From positions 1-54,505 of the forward strand of contig JAFPWY010000005.1 of the NCBI GenBank assembly GCA_017412605.1: a stretch of DNA of 54,505 nt. The letters are read 5' to 3'. Position numbers and translations under genes: made by a program. Of the stretch, positions 3,847-22,040 are shown one piece after another. Numbering within the stretch: the stretch's first letter is position 1; each line of letters begins with the position of its first letter. Source of the stretch: Fibrobacter sp. GTDB taxonomy: Bacteria > Fibrobacterota > Fibrobacteria > Fibrobacterales > Fibrobacteraceae. The notes under the pieces were generated by a model that worked only from the letters and a program-made list of their open reading frames with translations, had not been told where the DNA came from and searched no databases.

Positions 3847-3877
3847 TCGTTTCTCGGTATTGTGAAAAAAGGAGCTG

Positions 3878-4795
3878 TTATTCCGCGAATCCCGGAGGGG
3901 GCAGGTGCATGCCGGCCATCAGGAGCTTGTTGTCGCGGGCGTATTGCATGATGCGCCCCCGGCTCTCGGCGGATTTAGGCTTGTCCATGTCGTAGTTGGA
4001 GTTGATTTCGGGGTGGTCCTTCTGCAGGGCGTAACCGTGCATCAGGTCGCCGACGATAATCAGGTTTGCAAGCTGGAAGGCGGTGTGGCCAGGCGTATGT
4101 CCGACGGCGTCCATCGCGAGCACTCCGTGGGGGAGCGTGTCGCCGAATGCGAACAGGTGCAGGCTATCCTTGTAGAGTGCCATGATGCCTTTTTGCAAGT
4201 CGTTTTTCGGGATGTCGTTCATCCAAGCGTCGTATTCCACTTTGCCCGCATAGACGGCGGCGTTCTTGAAGACCTTCACGTCGTTGCCTGCATCGTCCTT
4301 CACGACAAGGCCCGCAATGTGGTCCACATGGAAATGCGTCAGGTAAACAAGCCCGATGCTGTCGGGGTTCACGCCGAGAGCGGCGAGGCGGTTCATGAGT
4401 TGCCCGCCGAAAGCTCCGAGGCCTGCATCAAACAATATATACTGATTGTCAATTTTCACGAGGAACGTGCTCACGCTGGCCGGGATGCCGTCGGGCATGT
4501 TCAGGCTGTTGTAGAGCGAGTCGCTCGCATCGCTGAAGAGGCTCCGCGGGTTCAGTTTTTCGCCCTCGTTGTCCTGGATCCATGTGACGCTCGCCCCGTT
4601 CGCGAGGGTTATGGTTTTCGTGCCTTCGACCTGTGCGACCGTTTCTGCGGGCGTGGCGGTCTCTGTCGGGGCTGCTTGGGCGGCGGGTTCTTCTGCCTTG
4701 TTTTCGTTGGCTGCTTTTTTGGTGTCGCTACATCCGGTGACGGAGAACGAGAGCATGAGCGCCGTGGCGCAGAGCGTTCCGAAAATCTTGTTCAT
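3878..4795 (-). CDS. MBL-fold metallo-hydrolase lipoprotein
   Basis: The 305-residue protein has a lipoprotein leader ending VTGC (Cys22) and an Ala/Glu/Pro-rich linker to about residue 58. A metallo-beta-lactamase fold follows: LFDAGLG (121-127), the zinc-binding HFHVDH (154-159), then GHTPGH and IVGDLMH downstream. The order and spacing resemble lactonase-like or glyoxalase II-like hydrolases of the MBL superfamily, which use two metal ions. The substrate cannot be read from sequence. The leader places it in the periplasm or outer membrane. It is the first gene of a two-gene minus-strand unit with the DUF4153 protein. Confidence 0.85.
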   Translation of the reverse strand: MNKIFGTLCATALMLSFSVTGCSDTKKAANENKAEEPAAQAAPTETATPAETVAQVEGTKTITLANGASVTWIQDNEGEKLNPRSLFSDASDSLYNSLNMPDGIPASVSTFLVKIDNQYILFDAGLGAFGGQLMNRLAALGVNPDSIGLVYLTHFHVDHIAGLVVKDDAGNDVKVFKNAAVYAGKVEYDAWMNDIPKNDLQKGIMALYKDSLHLFAFGDTLPHGVLAMDAVGHTPGHTAFQLANLIIVGDLMHGYALQKDHPEINSNYDMDKPKSAESRGRIMQYARDNKLLMAGMHLPPPGFAE

Positions 4796-4885
4796 GGGGC
4801 GAACTCCTTTTTAAAGGGGGAATGTCAGAAAAATAATAAGAAAAAGTCTTTCCCTTCTGTGGAAGATGTATCTATCTTTTAAGGT

Positions 4886-5698
4886 ATGAGCGAAAATCTT
4901 GTACAGACAGTCTGCACGAACGGATTTGAGATGGAATATGCCCGTTTTGGTACGGGCGCAAGGCCAATGGTCATTATCCCGGGGCTTGCTATCAAGAGCG
5001 TGATGAAGTCTGCGGCATCTTTGCAAGTGCCGTACAAGATATTTACCGAGGATTATACGCTCTACTTTTTTGATCGGCGCAAGGATGCTGAACTCGGATA
5101 CTCCCTCGAAGATATGGCTCGCGACCAGGTGCTTGCCCTGCAGGCGCTTGGCTTGACGGATGTTGCTTTGTACGGCGTTTCGCAGGGTGGCATGGTGGCG
5201 CAGCATATTGCCGCGAACCATCCAGAACTTGTTTGGAAGCTTGTGCTCGGCTGTTCGACATCGAAAGCGGAACCTGAACAACTTGAAGTTATTGGCAACT
5301 GGACCCGCCTTGCCCGCGCCCACGACCGCGAAGGCCTTGTGGATGCGTTCATTCGCGACTGCTTTTCGGTGAAGTTCGCCGAACGTTATGGCCGGGCTCT
5401 TCGCGCCATGTACAGGGACGTTTCCGAGGCCGAGATGGACCGCTTCGCCATCTTTTCGCATGAATGTGATTCTGTGGATACCCGCGAGGACCTCGGCAAA
5501 ATCAAGTGCCCGGTGCTCGTGCTTGCCGCAAGCGACGACCGCGTGGTTTTGCCCGTTGCCTCCGAGAAGATTGTGGAGCGTCTGAAAGCCGCCGGTATTC
5601 CCTACGAGTTCCAGATGTTCGAAGGATTCGGCCACGCCGCCTTCGACGAACTCAAGGAATACAAGTCCCGCATCTACGAATTCCTCCAGAAGCCCTAA
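4886..5698 (+). CDS. Alpha/beta hydrolase
   Basis: A cytoplasmic protein of 270 residues with the full alpha/beta-hydrolase layout. The oxyanion region is IIPGLAI. The nucleophile elbow is GVSQGG with Ser99. The acid lies in LAASDDR (Asp217 or Asp218), and the catalytic His is in GFGHAAF (His250). The family includes 3-oxoadipate enol-lactonase-like and proline iminopeptidase-like enzymes; nothing here fixes the substrate. It is divergent from the MBL lipoprotein gene, with about 90 bases between the starts. No strong Shine-Dalgarno sequence is visible before ATG 4886, but this start fits the usual domain beginning. Confidence 0.85.
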   Translation: MSENLVQTVCTNGFEMEYARFGTGARPMVIIPGLAIKSVMKSAASLQVPYKIFTEDYTLYFFDRRKDAELGYSLEDMARDQVLALQALGLTDVALYGVSQGGMVAQHIAANHPELVWKLVLGCSTSKAEPEQLEVIGNWTRLARAHDREGLVDAFIRDCFSVKFAERYGRALRAMYRDVSEAEMDRFAIFSHECDSVDTREDLGKIKCPVLVLAASDDRVVLPVASEKIVERLKAAGIPYEFQMFEGFGHAAFDELKEYKSRIYEFLQKP

Positions 5699-5854: not shown

Positions 5855-6742
5855 ATGGCAAAAATTCTCTTTAAAAAACAGTTATCTCCTGCGGTATTCC
5901 AATTCCGCGTCGAGGCCCCGCTGATCGCTCAAGAGCGTAAGGCCGGCCAGTTCATCATCCTCCAGACGAACAAGGACAACGGCGAACGCGTGCCTCTCAC
6001 CATCGCCGATGCCGACACGACTGAAGGCTCTATCACCCTGATTTTCCAGACCGTCGGTAAGACCACCACCGAACTCTCCAAGTTCGAAGTCGGTGACGAT
6101 ATCCCGGTGCTCGTGGGCCCGCTCGGTTCCCCGACCCACATCGAGAATTTTGGCCACGTGGTTTGCGTGTGCGGTGGCGTGGGCATTGCCCCGATGCACC
6201 CGATTGTCCAGGCCATGAAGAAGGCCGGCAACAAGGTCACCATCATCATGGGTGCCCGTAACGAAAGCCTCTTCCTCATGAAGGAAGAAATGACCGCCCT
6301 CGCCGACGAAATCATTTTCATGACCGACGACGGTTCTTACGGCCGCAAGGGTCTCGTGACCGAACCGCTGAAGGAACTCTGCGAAGACACGAAGGGCAAG
6401 CCGGACATGGTGCTCGCCATCGGTCCTCCGATCATGATGAAGTTCTGCGCCCTCACCACCAAGCCCTACGGCGTGAAGACCGTCGTGAGCCTCAACAGCA
6501 TCATGGTGGACGGGACTGGCATGTGTGGTGGCTGCCGCGTGACGATCGGTGGCAAGACGAAGTTCGTCTGCGTCGATGGCCCGGAATTCGACGGCCACGA
6601 AGTTGACTGGAACAACATGCTCCAGCGCATGGGCGCCTTCAAGCCCCAGGAACAGGAAGCCTTGCACCGCTTCGGTGCCAACGACGGCCACAAGTGCAAC
6701 ATTGATAAGATGGCTGACGCAAAGGCCAAGGAGAGCAAGTAA
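5855..6742 (+). CDS. nfnA: NADH-dependent reduced ferredoxin:NADP+ oxidoreductase, small subunit (NfnA/NfnS)
   Basis: The 295-residue protein belongs to the sulfide/dihydroorotate dehydrogenase-like FAD/NAD-binding family. RVPLTIAD (45-52) is the flavin-binding motif and GGVGIAPM (107-114) the nucleotide-binding motif. The C-terminal [2Fe-2S] site is MCGGCRVT with FVCVDG, giving Cys224, Cys227 and Cys239. The family is known to use three Cys and one Asp for this cluster; Asp219 is well placed. NfnAB couples NADH, NADPH and ferredoxin by flavin-based electron bifurcation in anaerobes. The stop overlaps the nfnB start by one base (TAATG at 6740-6744), so the two are translationally coupled. The neighbouring nfnB makes this call stronger than a pyrK-like alternative. 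Confidence 0.88.
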   Translation: MAKILFKKQLSPAVFQFRVEAPLIAQERKAGQFIILQTNKDNGERVPLTIADADTTEGSITLIFQTVGKTTTELSKFEVGDDIPVLVGPLGSPTHIENFGHVVCVCGGVGIAPMHPIVQAMKKAGNKVTIIMGARNESLFLMKEEMTALADEIIFMTDDGSYGRKGLVTEPLKELCEDTKGKPDMVLAIGPPIMMKFCALTTKPYGVKTVVSLNSIMVDGTGMCGGCRVTIGGKTKFVCVDGPEFDGHEVDWNNMLQRMGAFKPQEQEALHRFGANDGHKCNIDKMADAKAKESK

Positions 6743-8241
6743 TGTCTGAACATTTGACTCGTGAACAGTTGGACGCCGCCGCCAAGGTGGAACTTGAAAA
6801 GATCAGGGCTCTTCCGCAGCCGCTCAAGCCCAAGGACAAGACTGCTATTCCGGCCCAGCCGATGCCGCAGCTCGAACCGAGCTACCGCGCCCGCGTGATG
6901 GAAGAAGTGGCTCAGGGTTACACCGAAGCCCAGGCCATCGTGGAAGCCAACCGCTGCCTCGCTTGTAAGAAGCCGTTCTGCGTCGAAAGCTGCCCGGTGC
7001 ACATCGACATCCCGGCCTTCATCGCGAAGATTGCCGAAGGTGACTTCAAGGCCGCTATCGCCAAGATTAAGGAAACGAGCTTGCTCCCGGCTATCTGCGG
7101 CCGTGTTTGCCCGCAGGAACGCCAGTGCCAGATGAACTGCACCATGGGCAAGATGCACAAGGACGTGAACCAGGCTGTGGCTATCGGCCGTCTGGAACGC
7201 TTTGCTGCTGACTACGAACGCAACAACGGTGGTGCTTCTGTGCCGGCCGTCAAGCCTGCTACCGGCAAGAAGGTGGCTGTGATCGGTTCCGGTCCTGCCG
7301 GTCTGGTTGTCGCTGCCGACGTGCGCCGCGAAGGCCACGACGTGACCATCTTCGAAGCTTTCCACAAGCTCGGCGGTGTGGTCCGCTACGGCATTCCTGA
7401 ATTCCGTCTGCCCAAGAAGATCGTTGACAATGAAATCGAATCTCTCGCTGCCATGGGCGTGAAGTTCGAGACAAATTTTGTCATCGGCCGTACTCGCAAG
7501 CTCAAGGATTTGATTGAAAAGGATGGCTTCGATGCCGTGTTCGTCGGTACCGGTGCTGGCCTCCCGCTCTTCATGAACATCGAAGGTGAAAACCTCGTCG
7601 GTGTGTTCGCCGCTAACGAATACCTGACCCGCGCTAACCTCATGCGCGCCTACGACAAGGAACATGCCGATACCCCGATGTGGCCCGGCAAGAACGTGGT
7701 CGTTCTCGGTGGTGGTAACGTCGCTATGGACGCTGCCCGTATGGCTCTCCGTCTCGGTGCCGAAAAGGTCCGCATCGTTTACCGCCGCAGCATGAACGAA
7801 CTTCCGGCCCGTAAGGAAGAAGTTCTCCATGCCCAGGAAGAGGGTGTCGAATTCTGCGTTCTGCAGAACCCGGCCAAGATTCTTGGCGACGAAGCCGGCC
7901 ACGTGCGCGGCATGCTCGTCGACAAGTACGAACTCGGCGAACCCGATGAAAAGGGCCGTCCGCGTCCGGTCAAGGTCGAAGGTGCAAGCTTCGAAATCGA
8001 ATGCGACACCGTGCTCGTTGCTATCGGTAACGGCTCCAACCCGCTTATCAGCAACACCACGCCGGAACTCTCCGTCGACAAGAAGGGTCACATCCTTCTT
8101 GAAGATGCTGCTGCCAACAAGACCTTCATGGAGAAGGTTTATGCCGGTGGTGACATCGTGCTCGGCGCTGCCACTGTCATCTTGGCAATGGGCGAAGGCC
8201 GCAGAGCAGCTGCGGGAATTAACGAATTCCTGAAGAAGTAA
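6742..8241 (+). CDS. nfnB: NADH-dependent reduced ferredoxin:NADP+ oxidoreductase, large subunit (NfnB/NfnL; often annotated gltA-like)
   Basis: The 499-residue protein has the glutamate synthase small-chain architecture. An N-terminal iron-sulfur region contains RCLACKKPFCVESCP (Cys72, 75, 80, 84) and a second set CGRVCPQERQCQMNC (Cys119, 123, 129, 133). A GSGPAG FAD motif lies at 182-187. A second dinucleotide motif, GGGNVAMDAARMA, with downstream YRRS is typical of NADPH binding. Coupling to nfnA identifies it as the bifurcating Nfn large subunit rather than the small chain of glutamate synthase; no large glutamate synthase subunit is nearby. In a fermenting anaerobe it would balance NADPH, NADH and ferredoxin pools. 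A terminator follows at 8261-8293. Confidence 0.88.
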   Translation: MSEHLTREQLDAAAKVELEKIRALPQPLKPKDKTAIPAQPMPQLEPSYRARVMEEVAQGYTEAQAIVEANRCLACKKPFCVESCPVHIDIPAFIAKIAEGDFKAAIAKIKETSLLPAICGRVCPQERQCQMNCTMGKMHKDVNQAVAIGRLERFAADYERNNGGASVPAVKPATGKKVAVIGSGPAGLVVAADVRREGHDVTIFEAFHKLGGVVRYGIPEFRLPKKIVDNEIESLAAMGVKFETNFVIGRTRKLKDLIEKDGFDAVFVGTGAGLPLFMNIEGENLVGVFAANEYLTRANLMRAYDKEHADTPMWPGKNVVVLGGGNVAMDAARMALRLGAEKVRIVYRRSMNELPARKEEVLHAQEEGVEFCVLQNPAKILGDEAGHVRGMLVDKYELGEPDEKGRPRPVKVEGASFEIECDTVLVAIGNGSNPLISNTTPELSVDKKGHILLEDAAANKTFMEKVYAGGDIVLGAATVILAMGEGRRAAAGINEFLKK

Positions 8242-8566: not shown

Positions 8567-9250
8567 ATGTTAGACCTTCTTGCGGTTCAATCTAGTACGA
8601 CCAACGCTACTATTATCACGTTGGCATATACGCTTTGCCTTGCCTTTATCTTATCTTCGGCAATCGGCTGGACTTACGAAAAGACCTTCCTCGGACTTTC
8701 CTATTCCCGCAACTTCGTCCAGGGCATTGTCCTGAGTTCGGTCGCGGCTGCGATGATCATGCAGGCCATCGGCGATAACGTCGGACGCGGCCTCGGTATG
8801 ATGGGTGCGCTTTCGGTGGTCCGCTTCCGTACGAGTTTCAAGGATCCTCGAGATATCATGTTCATATTTGCGGCGCTAGGTGCGGGTATCGGCTGCGGCG
8901 TTTATGCATGGGGTGCCGCTGTCGGCGGTACGATTGCCTTCTGCTGTGTCGCCTTCCTCCTTTCCCGCACGGGTCTCGGTACCAAGCACTTCTTTGACGG
9001 TATGCTCCGCTTTGCTCTCCCGAACGAAGGTGATGCTCGTGCCCAGGTCGAACATATCATGAAGACGAGCCTCAAGACTTTCATTCTCATTACCATGCGC
9101 GAAGTTGATGGCGGCGCCCGTCTGGATGTCGCCTACCAGATTCGCCTGCGTGCGACGAAGCCTGCCGCCGAAATCCTGAACGACCTTTCCAAGATCGAAG
9201 GAATTTCGGATGTCCAGTTCATGATGCAAGACGCGACGACGGAAATGTAA
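8567..9250 (+). CDS. DUF4956 membrane protein
   Basis: The 227-residue protein matches my recollection of DUF4956. It has about four transmembrane segments in residues 12-150. Between them is a conserved stretch with GDNVGRGLGMMGALSVVRFR and FKDPRDIMFIF, and a soluble C-terminal alpha/beta domain follows (about 165-227). ATG 8567 follows a good CGGAG site, so the longer frame is not used. Genes of this family are known to sit beside VTC-type polymerases in many bacteria, as here (three genes downstream). The role is not established; a channel or partner for the polymer made by the VTC protein is my inference. It is the first gene of the cluster, 12 bases before the adaptor gene. Confidence 0.8.
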   Translation: MLDLLAVQSSTTNATIITLAYTLCLAFILSSAIGWTYEKTFLGLSYSRNFVQGIVLSSVAAAMIMQAIGDNVGRGLGMMGALSVVRFRTSFKDPRDIMFIFAALGAGIGCGVYAWGAAVGGTIAFCCVAFLLSRTGLGTKHFFDGMLRFALPNEGDARAQVEHIMKTSLKTFILITMREVDGGARLDVAYQIRLRATKPAAEILNDLSKIEGISDVQFMMQDATTEM

Positions 9251-9262
9251 GGGGAGGATACG

Positions 9263-10366
9263 ATGCACAAACTTGAAGATCTTCTCGACAATTTCTGGAA
9301 CACTCACAAGAATAATGCGGGTGTCGCCTACGTCTATACTCACAAGCTGTCTTTGGCTTGGGCTTTCTGTGTTGTTTTTGCTATCGTCCTTGGCTTGGTC
9401 TACCAGGGCAAGGTCGCCATGTTCCGCGGCATTGCCGATGCGAACGAAACCATTATCAGCGTGCCCTCCGCAACCGAAATCGTTAAGGTCCACGTGGTTC
9501 CCGGCCAGGAACTCCAGGTGGGCGACACGATTGTCGAAATCAACCGCCCGGACTTGACTCTCCGCATCTCCGAAGTTGCCCGCGAGATTGACGCCCTCGA
9601 AGGCCGCAGCAATCTGAGTTCCGCCGAAATCGACCAGAAGGTGGCCGAAGTCAAGGCGAACCTCGAAACGAGGCGCCTCACTCTCAATGCCGAAATCCGC
9701 AACCTCGAGTCGGAATACCAGAAGAACAAGGAAATTTCGGCCAAGCTCAAGAGCCTCTCGAACTCGAAGTCCAGCAGCGACGGCAACGACGCCATGGCCT
9801 TGCAGATCAAGAGCCTCAAGAACGAACTTGCACTGGCGACTAAGAGCGCGAACCAGCAAATCGCCCTTTTGCGTGGCAGTGGCCGCTTGCAGAAGACGAG
9901 TGGCCAGAGCGAAGTCGAGAACCTGAAGAAGGAACTGGTCGAACTCCAGAAGCAGCAGGAAGACCTCGTCCAGATTGCCAAGGAAAACTGGGTGGTCGGT
10001 GACGTGAACGTCCGCGACGGAGAAAAGGTTTCGAGCTTTGCCCCGATTCTCACCCTCACGCACAAGCGCCCGACGATTATCCGCGGCTACATCAACGAAC
10101 AGATTTACCAGAACATGGACGTGGGCGAGACCGTGAAGGTGACCACGCTTGCCGGTACGGGCAAGGCGGTGGTTGGCGAAGTTGTCGGCCTCTCCAGCCG
10201 TATCGTCCCGTTCCCGACCCGCATGTGGAAGATGCCGGAGTTGCCGGTGTACGGTCGTGAAGTGACCATCAAGATTCCCGAAGAGAATCCGTTCCTCCTG
10301 GGCGAAATGGTGACTATTGCGGAAATGGGCGTTATTAATCATCTCAAGAAAGACGGTAAGAAATAA
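9263..10366 (+). CDS. HlyD-like periplasmic adaptor (membrane fusion) protein
   Basis: The 367-residue protein has a short cytoplasmic start, one transmembrane helix (about 30-48) and a lipoyl-like half domain (IVKVHVVPGQELQVGDTIVEI, about 73-93). A long coiled-coil hairpin follows (about 105-245, with a Ser-rich turn near 168), then the second lipoyl half (VVGDVNVRDGEKVSSFAPIL) and a beta-barrel domain. This is the layout of adaptors that bridge an inner-membrane unit to a TolC-like channel. A strong AGGGGAGG site precedes ATG 9263. Its stop overlaps the start of the TolC-like gene by one base, so they should be made together. Which inner-membrane protein it docks to is not shown; the DUF4956 protein is the obvious candidate. 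Confidence 0.85.
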   Translation: MHKLEDLLDNFWNTHKNNAGVAYVYTHKLSLAWAFCVVFAIVLGLVYQGKVAMFRGIADANETIISVPSATEIVKVHVVPGQELQVGDTIVEINRPDLTLRISEVAREIDALEGRSNLSSAEIDQKVAEVKANLETRRLTLNAEIRNLESEYQKNKEISAKLKSLSNSKSSSDGNDAMALQIKSLKNELALATKSANQQIALLRGSGRLQKTSGQSEVENLKKELVELQKQQEDLVQIAKENWVVGDVNVRDGEKVSSFAPILTLTHKRPTIIRGYINEQIYQNMDVGETVKVTTLAGTGKAVVGEVVGLSSRIVPFPTRMWKMPELPVYGREVTIKIPEENPFLLGEMVTIAEMGVINHLKKDGKK

Positions 10367-11745
10367 TGAAGCGCTTTGTTGCTCTCCCTATCATGTTGTC
10401 TGCGGCTCTGTATGCAGGCCCGCTGACGTGGGACCGTCTTGTCCAGTCGGCGCAGACGGACCCCCGATTCGAGGCCGCACAGAAGCGTTCCGAGGCAACG
10501 TCTTCTCCCAGGAATACGAAACTCTGGGACAAGATGGAATTGCGTTATCAGTTGGACGGTTTTAGCTTTGCCAAGCACGACTTTGAACTCCGCATGAGCC
10601 CCAAGACGTTCGGCGAAGGCTCTGCCGACCGTGAACGTTACGAGGCTAATAAGGCATACGAACAGGCCCGCTTTGGCGTGGAACGCTCCTTGTTGTTGTA
10701 TGACCGCTACGAGCGCGGTGTGCGCTATGTGATGCGCAAGAAGATTAACGAAATCAACAAGCAGTTGTTGCAGGTGAATGCCGACCGCATCGAGGTGTTG
10801 CACCTCAAGTCTGGTTCGGCTTCCTTCAATCCCGAAGATCTGATGGCCGCTCTGGAAAAGGGTGCTACCCTGAAGGCGGATTTGCTTTCGGACAGCACGG
10901 CTTTGCGTGACGCGGAACTCAAGATGAAAATCTGGGTGCCCGATTTCGATGGAGTTGATTTGGATTCCTCGTTCCTCCCGACCATGGACGAACTTGCTCA
11001 GAACCTTTCCAATGGCGTGGAAGTGAATGAAAACTTCCCGTTGGTGGCGATGGCCCGCGGCAAGCGCGACGCCGAAGTTGCCCAGGCCAAGCAGGACGTG
11101 AGCAAGGGTCGTGACTATATCTCGCATATCGGTATTGGTTATGCGCTGCAGATTGAATCCCGCATGGAAAAGTACAAGACGATGGATGCGACGGACGTCT
11201 TCGGTACGGGTCAATATCGCGATTACGTGGAAGATTTCAAGAAGGAAACTGGTTGCCAGACCGCTTTGAATTGTACTGCGACGGCTGATTTTCTTGTCCC
11301 GGACAAGGACGACCGCAAGACGGCCGACAAGTTCTTCGTGAATCTCGCTTTCCGCCTGCCGTTCTTCGACAGCGGCAAGGACGGCGATCTCAAGCTCCAG
11401 GTGGCCAAGCTCGATGCCGAGAGCGATTACCTTGCTGACGTGCGCGATATCAACCAGAAGGTGGCCCGCCTGACCGAGGAAGTGCTTGCCATGATTGGCC
11501 AGTGGAAGGTGCAGAAGGAATATGTGCAGCAGGTGAACGCGAGCGGGTTCATGGAACAGTTCGCGATTAACGCCGGCTCCGATCCGCTCTTGCTCCTGCG
11601 CGCCAAGGAAAGTTCGCTCGAAAGCGACATGAAGGCAGTCAAGCTGGAATACGATATTTTCGTGCGCTACCTGGAATTGCTCAACTATGCGGGTATCCTT
11701 GCCCGCGAGGGTAGCGCGAACCATCTCCGTGAGGCTTTGAAGTAA
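10366..11745 (+). CDS. TolC-like outer-membrane efflux protein (divergent)
   Basis: The 459-residue protein has a signal peptide (MKRFVALPIMLSAALYA). The body is mostly long alpha helices interrupted by short beta regions, as in TolC-family channels, which are usually 430-480 residues. The first helix includes LTWDRLVQSAQTDPRFEAAQ, the typical TolC opening. The last helices include ESSLESDMKAVKLEYDIFVRYLELLNYAGIL, the usual C-terminal repeat. It lacks the classical DxLxA motif in a clean form, so it is a divergent member. It overlaps the adaptor gene by one base and is followed after one base by the VTC polymerase gene, tying an outer-membrane channel to polymer synthesis. Confidence 0.8.
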   Translation: MKRFVALPIMLSAALYAGPLTWDRLVQSAQTDPRFEAAQKRSEATSSPRNTKLWDKMELRYQLDGFSFAKHDFELRMSPKTFGEGSADRERYEANKAYEQARFGVERSLLLYDRYERGVRYVMRKKINEINKQLLQVNADRIEVLHLKSGSASFNPEDLMAALEKGATLKADLLSDSTALRDAELKMKIWVPDFDGVDLDSSFLPTMDELAQNLSNGVEVNENFPLVAMARGKRDAEVAQAKQDVSKGRDYISHIGIGYALQIESRMEKYKTMDATDVFGTGQYRDYVEDFKKETGCQTALNCTATADFLVPDKDDRKTADKFFVNLAFRLPFFDSGKDGDLKLQVAKLDAESDYLADVRDINQKVARLTEEVLAMIGQWKVQKEYVQQVNASGFMEQFAINAGSDPLLLLRAKESSLESDMKAVKLEYDIFVRYLELLNYAGILAREGSANHLREALK

Positions 11746-11746
11746 T

Positions 11747-12565
11747 ATGGCCGAAGCCCGTGGATTTAGCCTTCTCGAGCGATTCGAGCTCAAGTACCAT
11801 ATCCCCGTTGAATGGGCGGACCGGATAGGTGCCTTCCTTGCTCCGTATTGCGAAGAGGACTATTATTCCAAGATTACTCCGGGTGGTTTCTACTGGATTA
11901 CGAACTTGTACTTGGATAGCCCCAAGTGGACTTTCCTCGGTTGGAAAAAGAAACAGCTCCTGGACCGCTTCAACATGCGTATCCGTACTTACGGCGAGCA
12001 TCCGGCACAGGACGGCACGTTCCATTTTGAAGTCAAGCGCAAGATCCGTAGCATCTGCTACAAGAGCCGTGCGACCATCAAGGGAATCAACCCGGGCGAA
12101 GTCTGGAACATGAAACCCGAGGAATGGCCCTGCAAGACGGACAAGGACCGCATGTACCTCAAGGATTTCCTTTACAAGACGGAACTCCACGGGGCTCACC
12201 CGCGCCTACTCACACAGTACAAGCGTCGCGCCTGGTTCGGGCTCCGCGAGGAATATTCCCGCGTCACTATCGATACGGGCATGCGCTTCCGCGAAGAGAA
12301 CGGGTTCGACTATACGGTGGACCCGCACTACATGCATTCGACCGGTCTTCCGAGGTTTTTCCAGCCGGGAATGGACGCAGTGCTCGAATTAAAGTGTCCT
12401 TGCTCACAGGTTCCTTACTGGATGTTCGACCTGATAAGATTTTTGAACCTCAAGCACTCCGCATTTTCTAAATTCGGTAATGCGGCCGCTGAATGGAAAC
12501 GGGTTTACGAGAACCCGCGTAGGTTCAAGAGCCCTTACTGGACGAAACTGGCTGGAAATTTTTAA
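11747..12565 (+). CDS. VTC-domain polyphosphate polymerase
   Basis: The 272-residue soluble protein has all the landmarks of the VTC catalytic tunnel: RFELKY (12-17), LYLDSP (54-59), MRIRTYG with Arg78 and Arg80, FEVKRK with Glu95 and Lys97, YKSR with Lys106, ELK (214-216) and FSKF (237-240). In yeast Vtc4 such basic and acidic residues bind the nucleotide, metal and growing polyphosphate chain. The site appears intact, so an active polymerase (NTP to polyphosphate, or a related chain) is likely. It has no membrane segment of its own; the DUF4956 protein may anchor it. The start lies one base after the TolC-like stop, so it belongs to the same operon. Confidence 0.88.
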   Translation: MAEARGFSLLERFELKYHIPVEWADRIGAFLAPYCEEDYYSKITPGGFYWITNLYLDSPKWTFLGWKKKQLLDRFNMRIRTYGEHPAQDGTFHFEVKRKIRSICYKSRATIKGINPGEVWNMKPEEWPCKTDKDRMYLKDFLYKTELHGAHPRLLTQYKRRAWFGLREEYSRVTIDTGMRFREENGFDYTVDPHYMHSTGLPRFFQPGMDAVLELKCPCSQVPYWMFDLIRFLNLKHSAFSKFGNAAAEWKRVYENPRRFKSPYWTKLAGNF

Positions 12566-12607
12566 GAGTTTTATTATAGAGTTTGACTTGAACAAAGGAT
12601 GGCCCTT

Positions 12608-14350
12608 ATGAACATGAAAAAGTGGCTTTTGACCGGTGCCTGTATTGCTATGCTTGGAGCGCTTTCTGCGTGCTCCAACGAGGATAGCAGCAACTCAGTG
12701 TCCCCTGAGATTAGCTCGGACTCTCAGTCCGGAGATACTGCCAGTAGTGGTGATCCCCAGCCTTCTTCTGCTGGCGATCCGACTTCGGCTGATCCTGGCA
12801 ACAGTAGTGAAAAGGGGAGCAGCGGAGGTAAGGATCCCACTCCCGCTTCGAGCAGCAGCGACGAACCTATTCCCGACACGGCTCCTCCGCAGATGGGTTG
12901 CTCCGAAATCATGTACAATGCGGCTGGTGGTTCGGAACTCGAATGGATCGAAATCTATATCGCGGGTGGCATGGATATCGACAATATGCAGAATTACCTG
13001 CTCCACTTGAGCGGTGCTGTCGATTATACGTTCCCCGGAGAGCCCTTGAAGAAGGGTGAATATATCGTGGTGACGAACGATCCCACTACATTCAAGGAAA
13101 CTTATCCTACGTTTGCCGGTCGTCTGTTTGGCCCGTGGGATGGCGGAACGACTGTCAAGTTGGCCAACGAAGGCGATGTCGTGAACGTGAAGATTGACGG
13201 CGAAGGCGACGTGAGCTGTGCCTTCGGTAACGAACCTCCTTGGCCGAGCCTTGCCGACGGCAAGGGCCGTACCCTCGTGTATGTGGGTGGCAATGCGGCC
13301 CAGCCGAACTCCTGGGCGGCTAGCAAGCTTGACAAGGGCAATCCCGGTGTCGGTAACGATGAATGGGTGACCCCTGCCGCGGTGCGCATCAACGAAATCA
13401 TGCCGAACATCGCCGGTGACGATACTGCATGGATTGAACTTTACAATACGGGCGACCAGGAAGTGGATGTCGCCGGCTGGACTATCGAGGTCAAGCGCCG
13501 CAAGCAGACGCTGACCATCAAGTCGGGAGCCGTTTCTACAGTGATTCCTGCAAAGGGCTATGTGGTGCTCAATGCAGTTGACAACTTCGACGAAGAACTG
13601 GTGGTGAGCCAGCAGGGTGGTGAATTCTATCTGCGTGGTTCGCTGGAAGGCGAAGAATCTAGTATCTGGGTGCCTGCCGGTACGGGTACAAGCGGCGTAA
13701 TCGACTTGAGTGATGGTTCTACGGCACAGGGCCCGCTCGCTTCTGCTACGCCTGGCGCAAAAAATTCTGCCCTCAAGATGGGTTCTGTGTATATCAACGA
13801 AATCCATTACCATCCGAAGGATTCGGATCCCGGCGAGATTCCGTTTGAATTTATGGAACTGGTGAATGGTTCCGACAACGATATTCCTCTTTACAGCACC
13901 AATGTCCAGAAGGGTTGGAAGATAGAGGGTATTAACATGGAATTCGGGAGCACTGCGGTTCTCCCTGCCCATGGCATGATTGTCCTGATTCCTGAGGAAT
14001 TGGATATGACGGTGGCTGCGACCTTCGGCATTACGAATTGGGGCCCGGATTTTGTGCGTTCGACCTATTCTATCCCGGAATCGGTGCAGATTATGACTTA
14101 CTCCGGTAAGCTCTCCAACCGCAGCGAAACGATCGCCGTCAAGGAGCCCTACGCCAAGGCCGATAGCAAGTCCGCCCAGAGTGGCTACGTCTACTTCTAC
14201 ATCTGGCACGACGCTACGCTCTATTCCGATAAGTGGCCGGATTTGAAGGAAGCGGACGGTCTCGGATACAGCCTGCAGCGTGTCGACACGAAGACGATGG
14301 GTTACGAGGCCAGCGCCTGGAAGGCCGACGTACCGACCCTCGGCAAGTAA
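12608..14350 (+). CDS. Lipoprotein with three lamin-tail-like domains
   Basis: The 580-residue lipoprotein has a leader ending LSAC (Cys22) and a Ser/Pro/Gly-rich linker to about residue 90. Three beta-sandwich modules of the lamin-tail (LTD) type follow, opening with CSEIMYNAAGGSELEWIEIY, VRINEIMPN..WIELYNTG and VYINEIHYHP..FEFMELVNG. ATG 12608 is preferred because AAAGG at 12594-12598 is correctly spaced from it and too close to the upstream ATG 12599. LTD modules are typical of CotH-type surface proteins that often accompany VTC and DUF4956 genes, but no CotH kinase domain is present here. It lies 42 bases past the VTC gene and before a terminator, so it is probably the last gene of the cluster, displayed on the envelope. 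Confidence 0.8.
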   Translation: MNMKKWLLTGACIAMLGALSACSNEDSSNSVSPEISSDSQSGDTASSGDPQPSSAGDPTSADPGNSSEKGSSGGKDPTPASSSSDEPIPDTAPPQMGCSEIMYNAAGGSELEWIEIYIAGGMDIDNMQNYLLHLSGAVDYTFPGEPLKKGEYIVVTNDPTTFKETYPTFAGRLFGPWDGGTTVKLANEGDVVNVKIDGEGDVSCAFGNEPPWPSLADGKGRTLVYVGGNAAQPNSWAASKLDKGNPGVGNDEWVTPAAVRINEIMPNIAGDDTAWIELYNTGDQEVDVAGWTIEVKRRKQTLTIKSGAVSTVIPAKGYVVLNAVDNFDEELVVSQQGGEFYLRGSLEGEESSIWVPAGTGTSGVIDLSDGSTAQGPLASATPGAKNSALKMGSVYINEIHYHPKDSDPGEIPFEFMELVNGSDNDIPLYSTNVQKGWKIEGINMEFGSTAVLPAHGMIVLIPEELDMTVAATFGITNWGPDFVRSTYSIPESVQIMTYSGKLSNRSETIAVKEPYAKADSKSAQSGYVYFYIWHDATLYSDKWPDLKEADGLGYSLQRVDTKTMGYEASAWKADVPTLGK

Positions 14351-14369: not shown

Positions 14370-14402
14370 TTTTCCCCCGGTCTTTCCGGGGGATTTTTTT
14401 AT
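14370..14402 (+). terminator. Rho-independent terminator closing the VTC cluster
   Basis: An 8-bp GC-rich stem (14373-14380 TCCCCCGG with 14386-14393) has loop TCTTT and is followed by seven T residues. It separates the VTC cluster from the next export operon. Confidence 0.88.
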
Positions 14403-14517
14403 AAAAGAGAGCAAGATGCGCAAGTATGCCCTCTTATAGCTAAATTCCCCCTTTTTGTCAGAAAAGGCGGGACGGCGGGAGTGCCCAAAAATAGAATTTG
14501 CTATTTTATCTTGTGCT

Positions 14518-16314
14518 ATGAGATTGCACTTTACATTTTTTGTTTTTGTATCTGTAGCGGCTGTGGCGGCGCCCCTTTCGCTCCAGGACGCCCTTAACAT
14601 GGCAAAATCGGGCAATTCGCAGATTAAGGCCGAAAAAGCCAAGGTCGAGATGGCCGAGAGCGGCAAGAACGAGGCTCGCTCACGCTTTATGCCCACAGTC
14701 TCCCTGTCTGCCGGGGTCACCAAGATTAACGATCCAATCAGTATTGACTTGAACGAAGTCCGTTCGGGCATCATTTCGGTGCATGGAGCCGAGGCTTACC
14801 AGAATTATTACAAGACCGGCTACGATGCTGCCTATGAGCGCGCTACCGGGGCGGGAATGCCCGAAGAAATGGCGCTTCCCATGGCGAAGGGCGTTGGCGA
14901 TTCCGTGGGAAATCTTGCCAAGATGAAAACGGAATCCACGCTGGATTCGGCCTTGCCGGATTTCAAGAAAAAGGTCCAGGACGACGTGTTCTTCAATGCG
15001 CGATTGTCCGTCGTGTGGCCGATTTTTACCGGGCTCAAGATTTATTCCGCCTACGATGCCGCCAAGGAGAACGTGACTGCTCGCAAGGCTGAGTTCGACA
15101 TGGCCCAGAATGCCATCCTCATGGATGTCGCCACAAGGTACTTCTCCTTGCGCTTAGCCGAGGAATTGACGCTGCTCCGCGAGACGACAAAACGTAATTT
15201 GGAAGAGCATCTGGAGCGTTCCAAAAAGCTTGAAGAGGGTGGGCAGATTAGCAAGGCGGAACGCCTCCGCGCCGAAGTTGCCCTTGCCGAGGCCCAGAAC
15301 GCGTTGGAAGATGCCCAGCGCGACCAGACGCTGGCTCGCCTCGCTTTGGCTAGCCTTTTGCATACGGACACGAGCATTACTGCGACGACCCCGGTCGAGT
15401 CGCCTGAGGAATATCGCTCCATTGACGAAATCAAGGCGTTGGCGCGTGAGAAACATCCAGGACTTAGGCAATTGCGCACCGAGCGCAAGCGCAGTCAGGC
15501 TGCCGTCAGTGCCGCCCGGGCTGATTACTTCCCGACAGTCGCCCTGTTCGGTTACAAGGAACTTTATACGAAAGACCTGACCATGCTGGAGCCTGAATGG
15601 GCTGTGGGTGCGAAGGCTCAGTGGGATTTGTTCAAGGGCGGCGAGACTCATTCCAAGGTGAGCAGCGCGAAGGCGCTGGACCGTTCGCTGGCTAGCATGG
15701 AAGAGCAGACTCTGGACAACATAAACTTGCTGGTCGAAAAGCGCTGGCGCGAGATGGAACATGCCAAGAGCCGCTTGGTGAGTTTGCAGAAGACGCGTGA
15801 ACTGGCTGACGAGGCCCTGCGTAGCCAGAACAAGGCTTACGAGGCGGGTCTTTCGACCGGCCTCGACGTGGTGGATGCCGAACTGGCGCTGTCTCGATTG
15901 CAGGTGGCTGATTTGAAGGCTCACTATGACGCCGTTATCGCATGGCTTGGCTTGCTTGAGTCTTGCGGCGAAGTCGAGAATGCGGGAAACCTGCTTACGG
16001 CATCCAAGCCGGTGGCTCCTGTGCAACCGGCTGCGCCTGCTGCGGATTCCGCGGCAACGGCTGCCCCGGCTCCGGCGGCACCTGCCGAGACGCCTGTTGA
16101 TTCTGCCGCAGTACCTCAGGATGCGGCTGAAATTCCGGCTGCTGCGGGAACGACCCCGGCCGCAGCGGAAACACCTGCCGCAGCGCCTGCTGCGACCCCT
16201 GAATCGGCGGTACAAACTGCGCCTGCCACGGCAGCCCCTGCTGCACCGGCGCAAGGATCTTCTGACAAGGAAAGCGCGGGAGCGGTTCCCGAGAACAAGG
16301 AGAATAAACAATGA
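14518..16314 (+). CDS. TolC-family outer-membrane efflux protein with Ala/Pro-rich tail
   Basis: The 598-residue protein has a signal peptide (MRLHFTFFVFVSVAAVA) from ATG 14518; the longer frame upstream lacks one. Two TolC repeats follow: LSLQDALNMAKSGNSQIKAEKAK opens the first and EIKALAREKHPGLRQLRTERKR the second, each with long coiled-coil helices. The normal family length is reached near residue 490. The last 100 or so residues are an Ala/Pro/Glu-rich low-complexity tail that is not part of the fold and would lie in the periplasm or outside the cell. The gene overlaps the HlyD gene by four bases (ATGA), so it is the outer-membrane part of the exporter encoded by the next three genes. Confidence 0.88.
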   Translation: MRLHFTFFVFVSVAAVAAPLSLQDALNMAKSGNSQIKAEKAKVEMAESGKNEARSRFMPTVSLSAGVTKINDPISIDLNEVRSGIISVHGAEAYQNYYKTGYDAAYERATGAGMPEEMALPMAKGVGDSVGNLAKMKTESTLDSALPDFKKKVQDDVFFNARLSVVWPIFTGLKIYSAYDAAKENVTARKAEFDMAQNAILMDVATRYFSLRLAEELTLLRETTKRNLEEHLERSKKLEEGGQISKAERLRAEVALAEAQNALEDAQRDQTLARLALASLLHTDTSITATTPVESPEEYRSIDEIKALAREKHPGLRQLRTERKRSQAAVSAARADYFPTVALFGYKELYTKDLTMLEPEWAVGAKAQWDLFKGGETHSKVSSAKALDRSLASMEEQTLDNINLLVEKRWREMEHAKSRLVSLQKTRELADEALRSQNKAYEAGLSTGLDVVDAELALSRLQVADLKAHYDAVIAWLGLLESCGEVENAGNLLTASKPVAPVQPAAPAADSAATAAPAPAAPAETPVDSAAVPQDAAEIPAAAGTTPAAAETPAAAPAATPESAVQTAPATAAPAAPAQGSSDKESAGAVPENKENKQ

Positions 16315-17312
16315 TTAATGCTTTGAAATTCATTGGCAAGTTGGTCATCGTGCTGGCGCTTGTTGCGCTGGTCGTGCTGGGGGTTGCCCAGCTCAAGAAG
16401 TTTGCCACTGAACCCCGCGAGCAGTTCTTGCAGGGCCAGATGGAAGCTAGGCGTGTCCTTGTTTCGGGGAAGGTCCCCGGCCGTATCGAAGCGCTTTTCG
16501 TGCGCGAGGGCGACCTGGTGATCAAGGATTCTCTCGTAGCCATCATCAGCAGTCCCGAAATCGAGGCGAAGAAGATTCAGGCCGAGGGCGCGCTCGGTGC
16601 CGCAAAGGCCCAGGCGAACAAGGCCCGCAATGGTGCCCGCAGCGAGGACATCACGGCGCTCAAGGCGATGGCCGACCGAGCCCAGGATGCCGCTACGCTT
16701 GCAAAGAATACGTATGACCGTGTCCAGAAGCTTTTTGACGAGGGCGTGCTCCCGTTGCAGAAACGCGACGAGGCCGAGACCCAGATGAAGGCGAGCCAGT
16801 CCGCAGCCGATGCCGCAAAGGCCCAGTACGACCAGGCCGTGGCCGGCGCCCGTAGCGAAGACAAGGCTGCCGCAAATGCCCTTGTGATGCAGGCCCGTGG
16901 AGCCTCTGCTGAAGTCGATGCCTACCTTGAAGAAACCAAGATTCGCTCCCCGATTACGGGCGAGGTCTCGCTCAAACTTGCCGAAGAAGGTGAAGTGGTC
17001 GGCTCGGGCATGCCTGTGGTGGCCGTGACGGACTTGAATGACGCATGGGCGGTGTTCCACCTGCGCGAAGACCTGCTCAAGAATGTCTACAAGGGAAGGA
17101 CCCTCACGTTGCACGTTCCTGCGCTTGACAAGGATGTCGAGATGTCGGTGAGCTATATCGCTTCTGTGGGCGACTACGCCACGTGGCGCAGCAGCAAGGA
17201 AAGCGGTGGGTTCGACCTCAAGACTTTCGAGGTGCGCCTGCGCCCCACGGAGAAGGTCGAGAACCTTCGCCCGGGCATGAGCGTTCTCCTTTCTGCGGAA
17301 TCTATTCGTTAG
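16311..17312 (+). CDS. HlyD-family periplasmic adaptor protein
   Basis: The 333-residue protein has an N-terminal membrane anchor (about 8-27), a lipoyl-like half domain (GKVPGRIEALFVREGDLVIK), a coiled-coil hairpin (about 75-195), the second lipoyl half (IRSPITGEVSLKLAEEGEVV) and a beta-barrel C-terminus. It is close to the YhiI/EmrA-like adaptors that pair with ABC-2 permeases. The coiled coil is rich in Ala and Lys and contains two GARSED stretches about 75 residues apart. AAGGAG at 16300-16305 precedes ATG 16311. It connects the TolC protein upstream to the two permeases downstream. Confidence 0.88.
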   Translation: MINALKFIGKLVIVLALVALVVLGVAQLKKFATEPREQFLQGQMEARRVLVSGKVPGRIEALFVREGDLVIKDSLVAIISSPEIEAKKIQAEGALGAAKAQANKARNGARSEDITALKAMADRAQDAATLAKNTYDRVQKLFDEGVLPLQKRDEAETQMKASQSAADAAKAQYDQAVAGARSEDKAAANALVMQARGASAEVDAYLEETKIRSPITGEVSLKLAEEGEVVGSGMPVVAVTDLNDAWAVFHLREDLLKNVYKGRTLTLHVPALDKDVEMSVSYIASVGDYATWRSSKESGGFDLKTFEVRLRPTEKVENLRPGMSVLLSAESIR

Positions 17313-17324
17313 CGGAGGCTTGCC

Positions 17325-18494
17325 GTGCTGTTGCAGGGATTCCTGAAAACGGTCCGGAAAATCTATTTCAGCCACAATATCGTCTTGTGGCTGATTCTCC
17401 TCGTTTTGCCCGTGGGAGTCTCGGTATTCATGCTGGGCCTGTTCTCGTCGCAGATTGTGCAGCATGTGCCCATCGGTATCGTGCGTCAAGACGACAGCTA
17501 CCTTGCCGACCGCCTGGAATCCAAGTTGCGTTCCAGTCCCGTTCTGAACGTGAAGATGGTTTGCCATGACATGGGCGAGTGCGAGCATGCTGTCATTCGC
17601 GGGGATCTCCAGGGTTTCCTGGTCTTGCCCAACGATTTGGAACGCCGTGCCCTCAGGTTCGAAAGCCCCGTGATTCCCGTCTATTCCAGCGGGCAGAATT
17701 ACTTGACCAACATGTTCGCGACCAAGGAAATCCGTGCGGTACTTTCGGCTGCAGGGAGCGAAATGTTTACTGCCCAGATGGACGATCCCGTGAAGACGGA
17801 AATTCACTCCGTCGGCAATGTCGAGGGCAACTACCAGGGCTTTCTTGGGCTTGGACTCGTGACTGCGCTGTTCCACCTCGCGGCGATGATTGTCGGCGTG
17901 TATGTGGCCTCGTTCCCGCTTCGTGACCACCGCGTGAGGGAAATGCTCGGCTATGCCCGCGGTTCTCGCTTTACGCTTTGGTTTGCAAGTGTTGTGCCCA
18001 TGAATATCATTCTTTGGCTCGGCATGATCGGTTGCTATGCCTATAGCCACAGGTTGCTTGCACCCCTGACCCTTAACGAATTTGTGATGACGGCTGCCGC
18101 TCAACTGTTCATGATTCTCGCCTGTTCCGGTGCCGGCATCGTGTTTGTCGGCGTGGTGGGCGTGATGAGGATTGCGACGGGTGCCGCAGGCGTCATTGGT
18201 AGTCCGGCCTTCGCGTTTGCAGGGCAGACGTTCCCCGTGATGGCCATGCCTTTTGCCGTACGCTGCTTCGCCTTCGTGCTCCCGTTGACTCATGCGCTCA
18301 AGATCCAGTCGATGATGCTCCTGGGTGACTTGAGCATGGGCCCTGCATGGGAGGTGCTGAAGGTGCTTATCGGGATGGCCCTGTTCTGGAACCTCCTGGG
18401 AGCCATCCTTATGTCGATGCGCTGGAAACAGTTCGCCCGTAGGGAGGCCGAGTTCGAGGAGAAAATGCGAACGGCTCCGGAGGCTTCCGCATGA
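17325..18494 (+). CDS. ABC-2 type transporter permease
   Basis: The 389-residue protein has one N-terminal transmembrane helix (about 20-42), a periplasmic domain of about 140 residues (HVPIGIVRQDDSYLADRLE opens it), then five to six helices in the C-terminal half. This is the ABC2_membrane_3 layout of YhhJ/YbhS-like drug or lipid exporters. The start is GTG 17325, preceded by GCGGAGG at 17312-17318; no ATG gives a complete first helix. The gene overlaps the next permease by four bases (ATGA). No ATP-binding protein is encoded in this operon, so the motor must come from elsewhere or be absent. Confidence 0.85.
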   Translation: MLLQGFLKTVRKIYFSHNIVLWLILLVLPVGVSVFMLGLFSSQIVQHVPIGIVRQDDSYLADRLESKLRSSPVLNVKMVCHDMGECEHAVIRGDLQGFLVLPNDLERRALRFESPVIPVYSSGQNYLTNMFATKEIRAVLSAAGSEMFTAQMDDPVKTEIHSVGNVEGNYQGFLGLGLVTALFHLAAMIVGVYVASFPLRDHRVREMLGYARGSRFTLWFASVVPMNIILWLGMIGCYAYSHRLLAPLTLNEFVMTAAAQLFMILACSGAGIVFVGVVGVMRIATGAAGVIGSPAFAFAGQTFPVMAMPFAVRCFAFVLPLTHALKIQSMMLLGDLSMGPAWEVLKVLIGMALFWNLLGAILMSMRWKQFARREAEFEEKMRTAPEASA

Positions 18495-19672
18495 TCCGTC
18501 GCCTTTGGAAAGTGGCTTTTGCCGAATGGAAACTGATGTACACGGACCCTGCCGCGGTGCTCCTGCTCGTGGTGGCGGGCGTCCTGTACGCCTTCTACTA
18601 TCCGACCCCGTATATTCACCAGACGGTGACGAAGGTCCCTGTTGCCATTGTGGATATGGACAACACGGCGATGTCGCGAGACCTTATTCGCATGGCTTCG
18701 GCATCGCAGCAAATCGAGGTGAAGGCGGTTTATTCCGAGATGATGCAGGCCGAGGAAGCCATGTCCCGCGACGAGATTTATGGCTTTATGGCCATTCCCG
18801 AGAACATGGAAAAGGACATCCGCAGCCATCGCCAGGTGACGGTGAATATTTTCACGCACGGGGCTTATGTGATGTTCCATGGCGCCATAGGTACGGCTTT
18901 TTCGACTTGTGCGTTGACGCTGGGTGCGACGAACAAGGTAAAGCAGATTGCGCTTTCCAAGAAGGTCCCCTCCGCAAAGGCCATCGCCATGCGCGACCCG
19001 TTCCCCCTCAGCATCCAGACGCTGTACAACAGTACGGGCGGCTATGCCAATTATGTGGTGCCCAGCGTTTTGGTGGTCATTCTCCAGCAGTCGCTGATTA
19101 TCGGGATTTGCGTATTGGGTGGTTCCCGTGCACATCGCCGGTTCCGCAAGAAGATGCGCAACAGTCCGGTGGAAAATGAAACACTACCTTACCGGTACTT
19201 TGGACGTTCGCTGGCTTACTTTGTTCATTATTGCTCGTTTATCCTGTTCTACCATTGCATCGTTTACAATCTTTTCGATTTCCCGAGACGCGGTGAATTG
19301 TTGCCCATGGTGGTTTTCTCGGTCGTGTTCCTTGCATCGACCATCAATTTGGGAATGGTGGTTTCGCAGGTGTTCTTGCGTCGCGAATCCAGCATGCAAC
19401 TTTTCTTGTACCTTTCCATCCCGATTTTGTTCCTTGCGAATTTTAGCTGGCCCAGTTACCTGATTCCGTCTTGGATGGTTGCCGTCTCGTACATTTTGCC
19501 GAGTACATTTGCCGTGCCTGCTTGGCTTTCTATCGAACAGATGGGGGGCGATATCTACGACGTGGCGCCTCGGCTGTACTTGCTTGCCGTGCAGGCCGTG
19601 GTGTACCTTGCGTTGGGGCTTTTGCTGACGCGCGCCCGCGACAAGGTCAAGCTCGACATCGGTGATATGTGA
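18491..19672 (+). CDS. ABC-2 type transporter permease (second of pair)
   Basis: The 393-residue protein has the same architecture as its upstream neighbour: first helix near residues 20-37, a periplasmic domain starting VPVAIVDMDNTAMSRDL, and five to six C-terminal helices ending LGLLLTRARDKVKL. The two permeases likely form a heterodimer that works with the HlyD and TolC proteins encoded just before. The start overlaps the preceding stop (ATGA). It is the last gene of the operon; a pair of inverted and direct repeats follows instead of a classical terminator. Confidence 0.85.
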   Translation: MIRRLWKVAFAEWKLMYTDPAAVLLLVVAGVLYAFYYPTPYIHQTVTKVPVAIVDMDNTAMSRDLIRMASASQQIEVKAVYSEMMQAEEAMSRDEIYGFMAIPENMEKDIRSHRQVTVNIFTHGAYVMFHGAIGTAFSTCALTLGATNKVKQIALSKKVPSAKAIAMRDPFPLSIQTLYNSTGGYANYVVPSVLVVILQQSLIIGICVLGGSRAHRRFRKKMRNSPVENETLPYRYFGRSLAYFVHYCSFILFYHCIVYNLFDFPRRGELLPMVVFSVVFLASTINLGMVVSQVFLRRESSMQLFLYLSIPILFLANFSWPSYLIPSWMVAVSYILPSTFAVPAWLSIEQMGGDIYDVAPRLYLLAVQAVVYLALGLLLTRARDKVKLDIGDM

Positions 19673-21844: not shown

Positions 21845-21959
21845 CTGTGTGAAATCGGCAAAATTTCAATTCTAATGAGAGTAAGACGGACGCTCACGCC
21901 CATTTGGGCGTGGGGCGTTTGTGTTTGCTATTAGAATGGCTTTGCCGAGCCACACACAG
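21845..21959 (+). promoter_or_regulatory. 115-base imperfect palindrome in the leader of the giant gene
   Basis: Nested arms pair across the whole element: 21845-21851 with 21953-21959 (CTGTGTG/CACACAG), 21856-21862 with 21941-21947 (CGGCAAA/TTTGCCG), 21869-21876 with 21930-21937 (ATTCTAAT/ATTAGAAT), and 21895-21901 with 21906-21912 (CACGCCC/GGGCGTG, loop ATTT). It lies between the promoter and the start codon, so the transcript should carry one long hairpin. It could be a regulatory leader structure or a MITE-like insertion. Confidence 0.6.
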
Positions 21960-22040
21960 GTAAGTGCAGACGATGCCACGCCTTTTTTTTGCGGAAAAAG
22001 TCTGTTTTCTTGGTGTGAGGGAGTTGAAAAGGATGGGATA

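Follow-up and report, generated by a model that had tools for sequence, protein, structure and literature searches.

Coupling of polyphosphate synthesis to membrane passage is known from the eukaryotic VTC complex (Vtc1/Vtc3/Vtc4 in yeast), in which the chain passes through a pore as it is made, the channel that receives it being lined with basic residues (PMC9911596). In Gram-positive bacteria, namely streptococci, clostridia and bifidobacteria, cotH, a polyphosphate polymerase gene and DUF4956(-DUF4832) are accessory genes of pel clusters (PMC7112168). Two further kinds of machine are relevant here: tripartite efflux and type I secretion systems (HlyD/TolC, AcrA/TolC, CusB/CusC), built on a membrane-fusion adaptor and a TolC-fold channel, and synthase-dependent secretion (Pel, alginate, cellulose), in which a cytosolic synthase feeds a dedicated envelope conduit. 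Here we analyse an operon in a stretch of 54,505 nucleotides from Fibrobacter sp. (contig JAFPWY010000005.1 of assembly GCA_017412605.1; hereafter the window, from a host genome of 3.5 Mb), where genes for a VTC-domain enzyme and a DUF4956 membrane protein are packed together with those for a HlyD-type adaptor, a TolC-fold channel and a lamin-tail-domain (LTD) lipoprotein. The first four of these form a core that is conserved in several phyla and may constitute a synthesis-coupled exporter spanning the envelope.

The initial annotation had described five packed genes here, and all five lie on the forward strand at the positions it gave, with their families confirmed by Pfam or, for the channel, by fold:

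8567..9250, + strand: DUF4956 membrane protein, 227 amino acids (PF16316, E=5.9e-12)
9263..10366, + strand: HlyD-type periplasmic adaptor, 367 amino acids, one N-terminal membrane anchor (HlyD_3, 8.6e-10)
10366..11745, + strand: TolC-fold outer-membrane channel, 459 amino acids (orthologues above the PF02321 cut-off; structural model matches)
11747..12565, + strand: VTC-domain enzyme, putative polyphosphate polymerase, 272 amino acids (PF09359, 3.6e-29)
12608..14350 (alternative start 12599), + strand: LTD lipoprotein, 580 amino acids, three lamin-tail-domain stretches (LTD, 2.3e-30)
14373..14393, + strand: intrinsic-terminator-like hairpin closing the operon, 8 pairs of which 7 are G-C, then TTTTTTT

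The DUF4956 and HlyD genes are separated by 12 bases, the HlyD and channel genes overlap by one base (TAATG), and a single base lies between channel and VTC. The gap from VTC to the LTD gene is 42 bases when counted from the ATG at 12608 and 33 from that at 12599, and the hairpin sits between the LTD gene and the next operon. Promoter- and terminator-like sites in the region were no more frequent than in shuffled sequences, that is, at chance level. The arrangement itself is far beyond chance, given its conservation in several families and phyla.

Compared with the yeast complex, the operon shares a VTC-domain polymerase with equivalent catalytic residues, and the coupling of synthesis to passage through a pore is a likeness that we propose here from the genes. 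The bacterial enzyme, however, lacks both the SPX domain and the Vtc1-like transmembrane part; its membrane partner is DUF4956, and the route continues across the envelope by way of an adaptor and an outer-membrane channel. A VTC-type polymerase, DUF4956 and CotH are associated in the Gram-positive pel accessory module as well, and here VTC and DUF4956 stand in one operon. That module sits beside pel without HlyD or TolC, whereas the conduit belongs to the conserved core in the present system; no pel-like genes were noticed in the neighbourhoods examined, the genomes themselves not having been searched for pel. The adaptor and channel are those of tripartite pumps, but a polymer synthase and DUF4956 replace the ABC, RND or MFS inner-membrane motor. 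Likewise, the idea shared with synthase-dependent secretion is carried by a tunnel-type phosphate polymerase and a HlyD/TolC-type conduit, with no glycosyltransferase. We found no report of VTC joined with HlyD/TolC, or of a bacterial polyphosphate exporter, in the open-licence literature (subscription papers and preprints were outside the search).

To assess conservation, 80 neighbourhoods from the phylum Fibrobacterota were compared, with orthologues called by profiles derived from the proteins of the window; many of the genomes analysed here are metagenome bins. VTC occurs in 136/168 genomes of the phylum, in two kinds of locus. Type-2 loci have the order DUF4956-HlyD-channel-VTC, mostly followed by LTD, and 51 channel-bearing loci of this kind, including the window, are spread over five families of the phylum (f1, f4, f5, f7 and f10). 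Type-1 loci, 30 in number, consist of VTC-DUF4956 with neither adaptor nor channel. Both a conduit-bearing and a conduit-free VTC locus are present in three genomes. When whole genomes are considered, the type-2 channel was found in 107/168 genomes of the phylum, directly upstream of VTC in 106 of these 107, and not one of the 168 genomes has the channel without VTC. The LTD gene is missing from some loci that retain the four-gene core.

Beyond the phylum, we scanned one genome per species from 84,980 species using the type-2 DUF4956 alone as bait, so that HlyD, channel and VTC were unselected, and took the best 80 of 270 relatives from inside and outside the phylum. Twenty-one of those loci lie outside Fibrobacterota, and the complete four-gene core is present in all 16 that are not broken by a contig end. 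Named as in the genome records, the carriers include Desulfobacterota including Desulfonema magnum and Desulfoluna limicola, Calditrichaeota, Delongbacteria, Halobacteriovoraceae/Oligoflexia and a Gammaproteobacterium; a Planctomycetota locus is broken by a contig end after HlyD. The position of DUF4956 varies outside the phylum, first in some loci and last in others, and the association therefore outlives rearrangement. Pairwise distances among the four core proteins correlate (r 0.72-0.82, Mantel p 0.0002, 23 divergent representatives), as one would expect if the four are passed on as a unit. The 16/16 uncut loci and the 106/107 channel-VTC adjacency rule out that the gene order is an accident of a single genome. 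Co-conservation of VTC, DUF4956, HlyD and TolC-like genes, whose absence from related genomes would have told against the initial annotation, extends both within and beyond the phylum, and the four core genes almost certainly form a functional unit. In the phylum of Desulfonema the VTC profile matched only 6/345 sampled genomes, strongly in 4, and such a patchy, rare occurrence would fit horizontal transfer of the module. Plasmids were considered as carriers and rejected, with only two distant VTC proteins found there.

The VTC profile (PF09359) covers positions 2-233 of 235 in the window protein, and the profile of type-1 and type-2 VTC proteins matches yeast Vtc4 (3g3q) at 6.4e-15. Type-2 enzymes form a subfamily of their own, with about 20% identity to type 1. 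Six residues (K16, R78, R80, K97, E214 and K242) are invariant in the 51 type-2 proteins and, except for one R80K, in the 30 type-1 proteins; they align with K200, R264, R266, K281, E426 and K458 of Vtc4, as counted from the alignment. Yeast VTC has been impaired by the triple exchange R264A/R266A/E426N (PMC9911596), and K458 has been called catalytic in Vtc4, while the equivalent residue contributes little in a tripolyphosphatase of the triphosphate tunnel metalloenzymes (TTM) (PMC4641920). Of the positions that form the acidic patch of TTM phosphatases, two were mapped: R12, basic as in Vtc4, and E14, where Vtc4 has threonine. Neither PPK1 nor PPK2 had a match in the host genome, where the VTC enzyme is the only recognisable, if putative, polyphosphate synthase; a Ppx-GppA-family gene is present. 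Across the phylum, PPK1 was found in 51/168 genomes and in few of those of the window's genus, where VTC may replace PPK.

DUF4956 is the sole polytopic protein of the core, with at least four hydrophobic segments and conserved basic residues, of which R86 and R88 are invariant in both locus types. By sequence it had no solved relatives; by fold only its C-terminal domain (residues 139-226) was matched, to ACT/NikR/S6-type ferredoxin folds (Z about 9-10.7), with no match for the poorly modelled membrane part. As the core holds no ABC, RND or MFS transporter, and as the yeast channel is lined with basic residues, DUF4956 is a natural candidate for the inner-membrane pore. The HlyD adaptor has a single hydrophobic segment (29-47). 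For the channel, the window protein gave no Pfam match, but two orthologues scored above the OEP cut-off (PF02321), and its AlphaFold model (pLDDT 81) can be superposed along its whole length on TolC (Foldseek E 2.6e-11), SilC, CusC and OprM, bearing out the TolC-like channel first read from the sequence. No ABC, RND or MFS inner-membrane motor was found in the operon, and none is common to the related loci. A tight run of genes at 14503-19672 of the window encodes a second channel and adaptor (OEP2-HlyD2) and two ABC-2 permeases, with no ATP-binding subunit within the run; we rejected it as the motor of the system, since it is linked to the VTC operon within the genus only, g10 showing a partial trace, and has its own adaptor and channel. 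Several adaptors outside Fibrobacter bear a C-terminal extension, long examples being those at 6191-8167 in locus L085 and 11056-13269 in L075, the latter extension being weakly phytase-like by Pfam; a separate phytase-like gene lies inside the L092 operon (6712-7668).

The most informative partner of the core is CotH, a kinase that the initial annotation had missed. It was found in 134/136 VTC-positive but only 8/32 VTC-negative genomes of the phylum (Fisher p 4e-20, uncorrected for ancestry) and in 14/17 type-2 genomes outside it. CotH is not encoded in the window operon, and twelve matches lie elsewhere in the same genome; it adjoins the core in L085, L092, L100, L128, L131 and L136. In Desulfonema magnum (L123) it likewise lies beside the core, fused there to LTD and a dockerin-like stretch. 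The type-1 loci tested also have CotH nearby, and what both types have in common is VTC-DUF4956 together with secreted CotH, joined in many loci by an outer-membrane route. The type-2 core of L144 has as its neighbour, at 3060-5003, a putative lipoprotein containing a PPDK_N domain (ATP-binding, of pyruvate phosphate dikinase), which is possibly another extracellular phosphotransferase used instead of CotH; no CotH match was found in that genome. Arylsulfotransferase-like and FGE-sulfatase-like proteins occur near some type-2 loci (L085 617-3821, L100 2309-3754, L132 7038-8537). Near six of the type-1 loci tested there is a Porin_O_P-like (OprO/P-like) barrel of the phosphate/pyrophosphate porin family, with weak Pfam scores of which one is above the cut-off. 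The barrels beside type-1 VTC-DUF4956 are:

L056, 10502-11563: Porin_O_P-like barrel
L059, 10384-11628: Porin_O_P-like barrel
L096, 11203-12567: Porin_O_P-like barrel
L099, 7852-8910: Porin_O_P-like barrel
L101, 6148-7260: Porin_O_P-like barrel
L103, 1188-2246: Porin_O_P-like barrel

Farther along the window, a 4004-residue open frame (21921-33935) gave weak matches, to Laminin_G_3 and bacterial Ig-like domains alone.

A synthesis-coupled trans-envelope exporter is, in our view, the best explanation of the core, with a probability of roughly 0.5. The cytosolic VTC enzyme would polymerise phosphate from ATP at the mouth of DUF4956, and the growing chain would pass through DUF4956 into the conduit that HlyD adaptor and TolC-fold channel form, thereby reaching the cell surface. 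Synthesis would itself be the driving step, with no ABC, RND or MFS motor, and surface CotH kinases and linked LTD proteins might use or hold the polymer. The polyphosphate product, its export, the DUF4956 pore and the use of the polymer are what we infer. The initial annotation had suggested that polyphosphate, or another anionic polymer, is exported or anchored on the surface. The conserved gene unit and the channel fold favour the first part, and we regard export of a phosphate polymer as an evenly balanced proposition, the crossing of the envelope being a deduction from these parts; anchoring by LTD found no support. That the polymer is used by CotH is a tentative and rather improbable idea, and the same holds for the fuller picture of a polyphosphate machine that feeds phosphoryl groups to secreted CotH kinases without extracellular ATP, of which VTC-DUF4956-CotH would be a stripped-down, single-membrane version.

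Several points weigh against the exporter. Type-1 loci have no HlyD/TolC conduit, and VTC-DUF4956 can therefore work without one. At position 14 the enzyme has a glutamate where Vtc4 has threonine, and this E14 resembles the acidic patch of TTM phosphatases. The apparently active VTC polymerase of the initial annotation is borne out in that all tested catalytic residues are retained; in view of E14, polymerase activity is likely, though not certain, with polyphosphate as the presumed product. We did not find a bacterial VTC protein with proven polymerase activity in the searchable literature. The membrane part of the DUF4956 model is of low confidence, and shared ancestry may enter into the CotH statistic. 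The LTD lipoprotein, once proposed as receptor or anchor of the polymer, has a lipobox (LSAC-SN at residues 19-22, start 12608), and lipobox-like motifs occur in 40/48 orthologues, but it is strongly acidic, with a net charge of -40 in the window and a mean of -5.9 per 100 residues in the 48 orthologues. Polyanion binding would thus need a divalent-cation bridge. We rejected LTD as the anchor on this ground and because it lies outside the invariant core; elsewhere LTD occurs with, or fused to, CotH kinase.

Small molecules or proteins are the usual cargo of the HlyD and TolC families. A first alternative, which we consider improbable without setting it aside, is that the tripartite DUF4956-HlyD-TolC system secretes something else, be it a surface protein, a peptide or a small phosphorylated molecule, and that VTC is a triphosphate-hydrolysing motor, a modifier or a regulator. 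Besides the usual cargo of these families, E14 would suit it, as would the ACT-like fold of the DUF4956 C-terminus, a fold that is often regulatory, and phosphatases and cyclases are both known among the triphosphate tunnel enzymes (PMC4641920). However, the polymerase-specific R12 and K242 are invariant in 51/51 type-2 proteins, no cargo gene is common to all loci, and the VTC-DUF4956 pair also occurs where HlyD and TolC are absent.

It is less probable still that the system plays an accessory part in building a polysaccharide or protein coat on the surface, with VTC-DUF4956-CotH modifying or regulating an exopolymer and the conduit exporting that exopolymer or its phosphorylated form. The accessory role of the same genes in Gram-positive pel clusters (PMC7112168) speaks for it, as do Cthe_2159 carbohydrate-binding proteins and the arylsulfotransferase-like and FGE-sulfatase-like proteins near some loci, but these neighbours are not common to all loci and the core contains no glycosyltransferase. 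Storage inside the cell, with VTC polyphosphate kept in the cytosol or periplasm and HlyD/TolC an unrelated pump in the same transcription unit, would agree with VTC being the lone recognisable synthase of a genome that also has a Ppx-GppA-family gene. We judge it very improbable, as every complete type-2 locus, over several phyla, has HlyD and the channel together with VTC despite rearrangement of DUF4956, and the distances of the four proteins co-vary. Equally remote is the idea that polyphosphate or phytate is taken up or scavenged from outside, VTC then being a sensor or working backwards. The phytase-like propeller weakly matched on several non-Fibrobacter adaptors would suit it, as would the OprO/P-like barrels beside type-1 loci and a calcineurin-like phosphoesterase close to one locus, but HlyD/TolC systems export, VTC-type enzymes synthesise, and the propeller, whose match falls short of the Pfam cut-off, is missing from the window adaptor.

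To conclude, a unit inherited in several phyla suggests a dedicated bacterial machine that sends a phosphate polymer to the cell surface and is undescribed in the searchable literature. The synthesis-coupled exporter would provide DUF4956 and the bacterial VTC branch with a function; that literature knows both only as gene associations. The compact four-gene unit makes two matters testable, by what means polyphosphate gets to the outside of bacterial cells and what serves as the phosphoryl donor of secreted kinases such as CotH.

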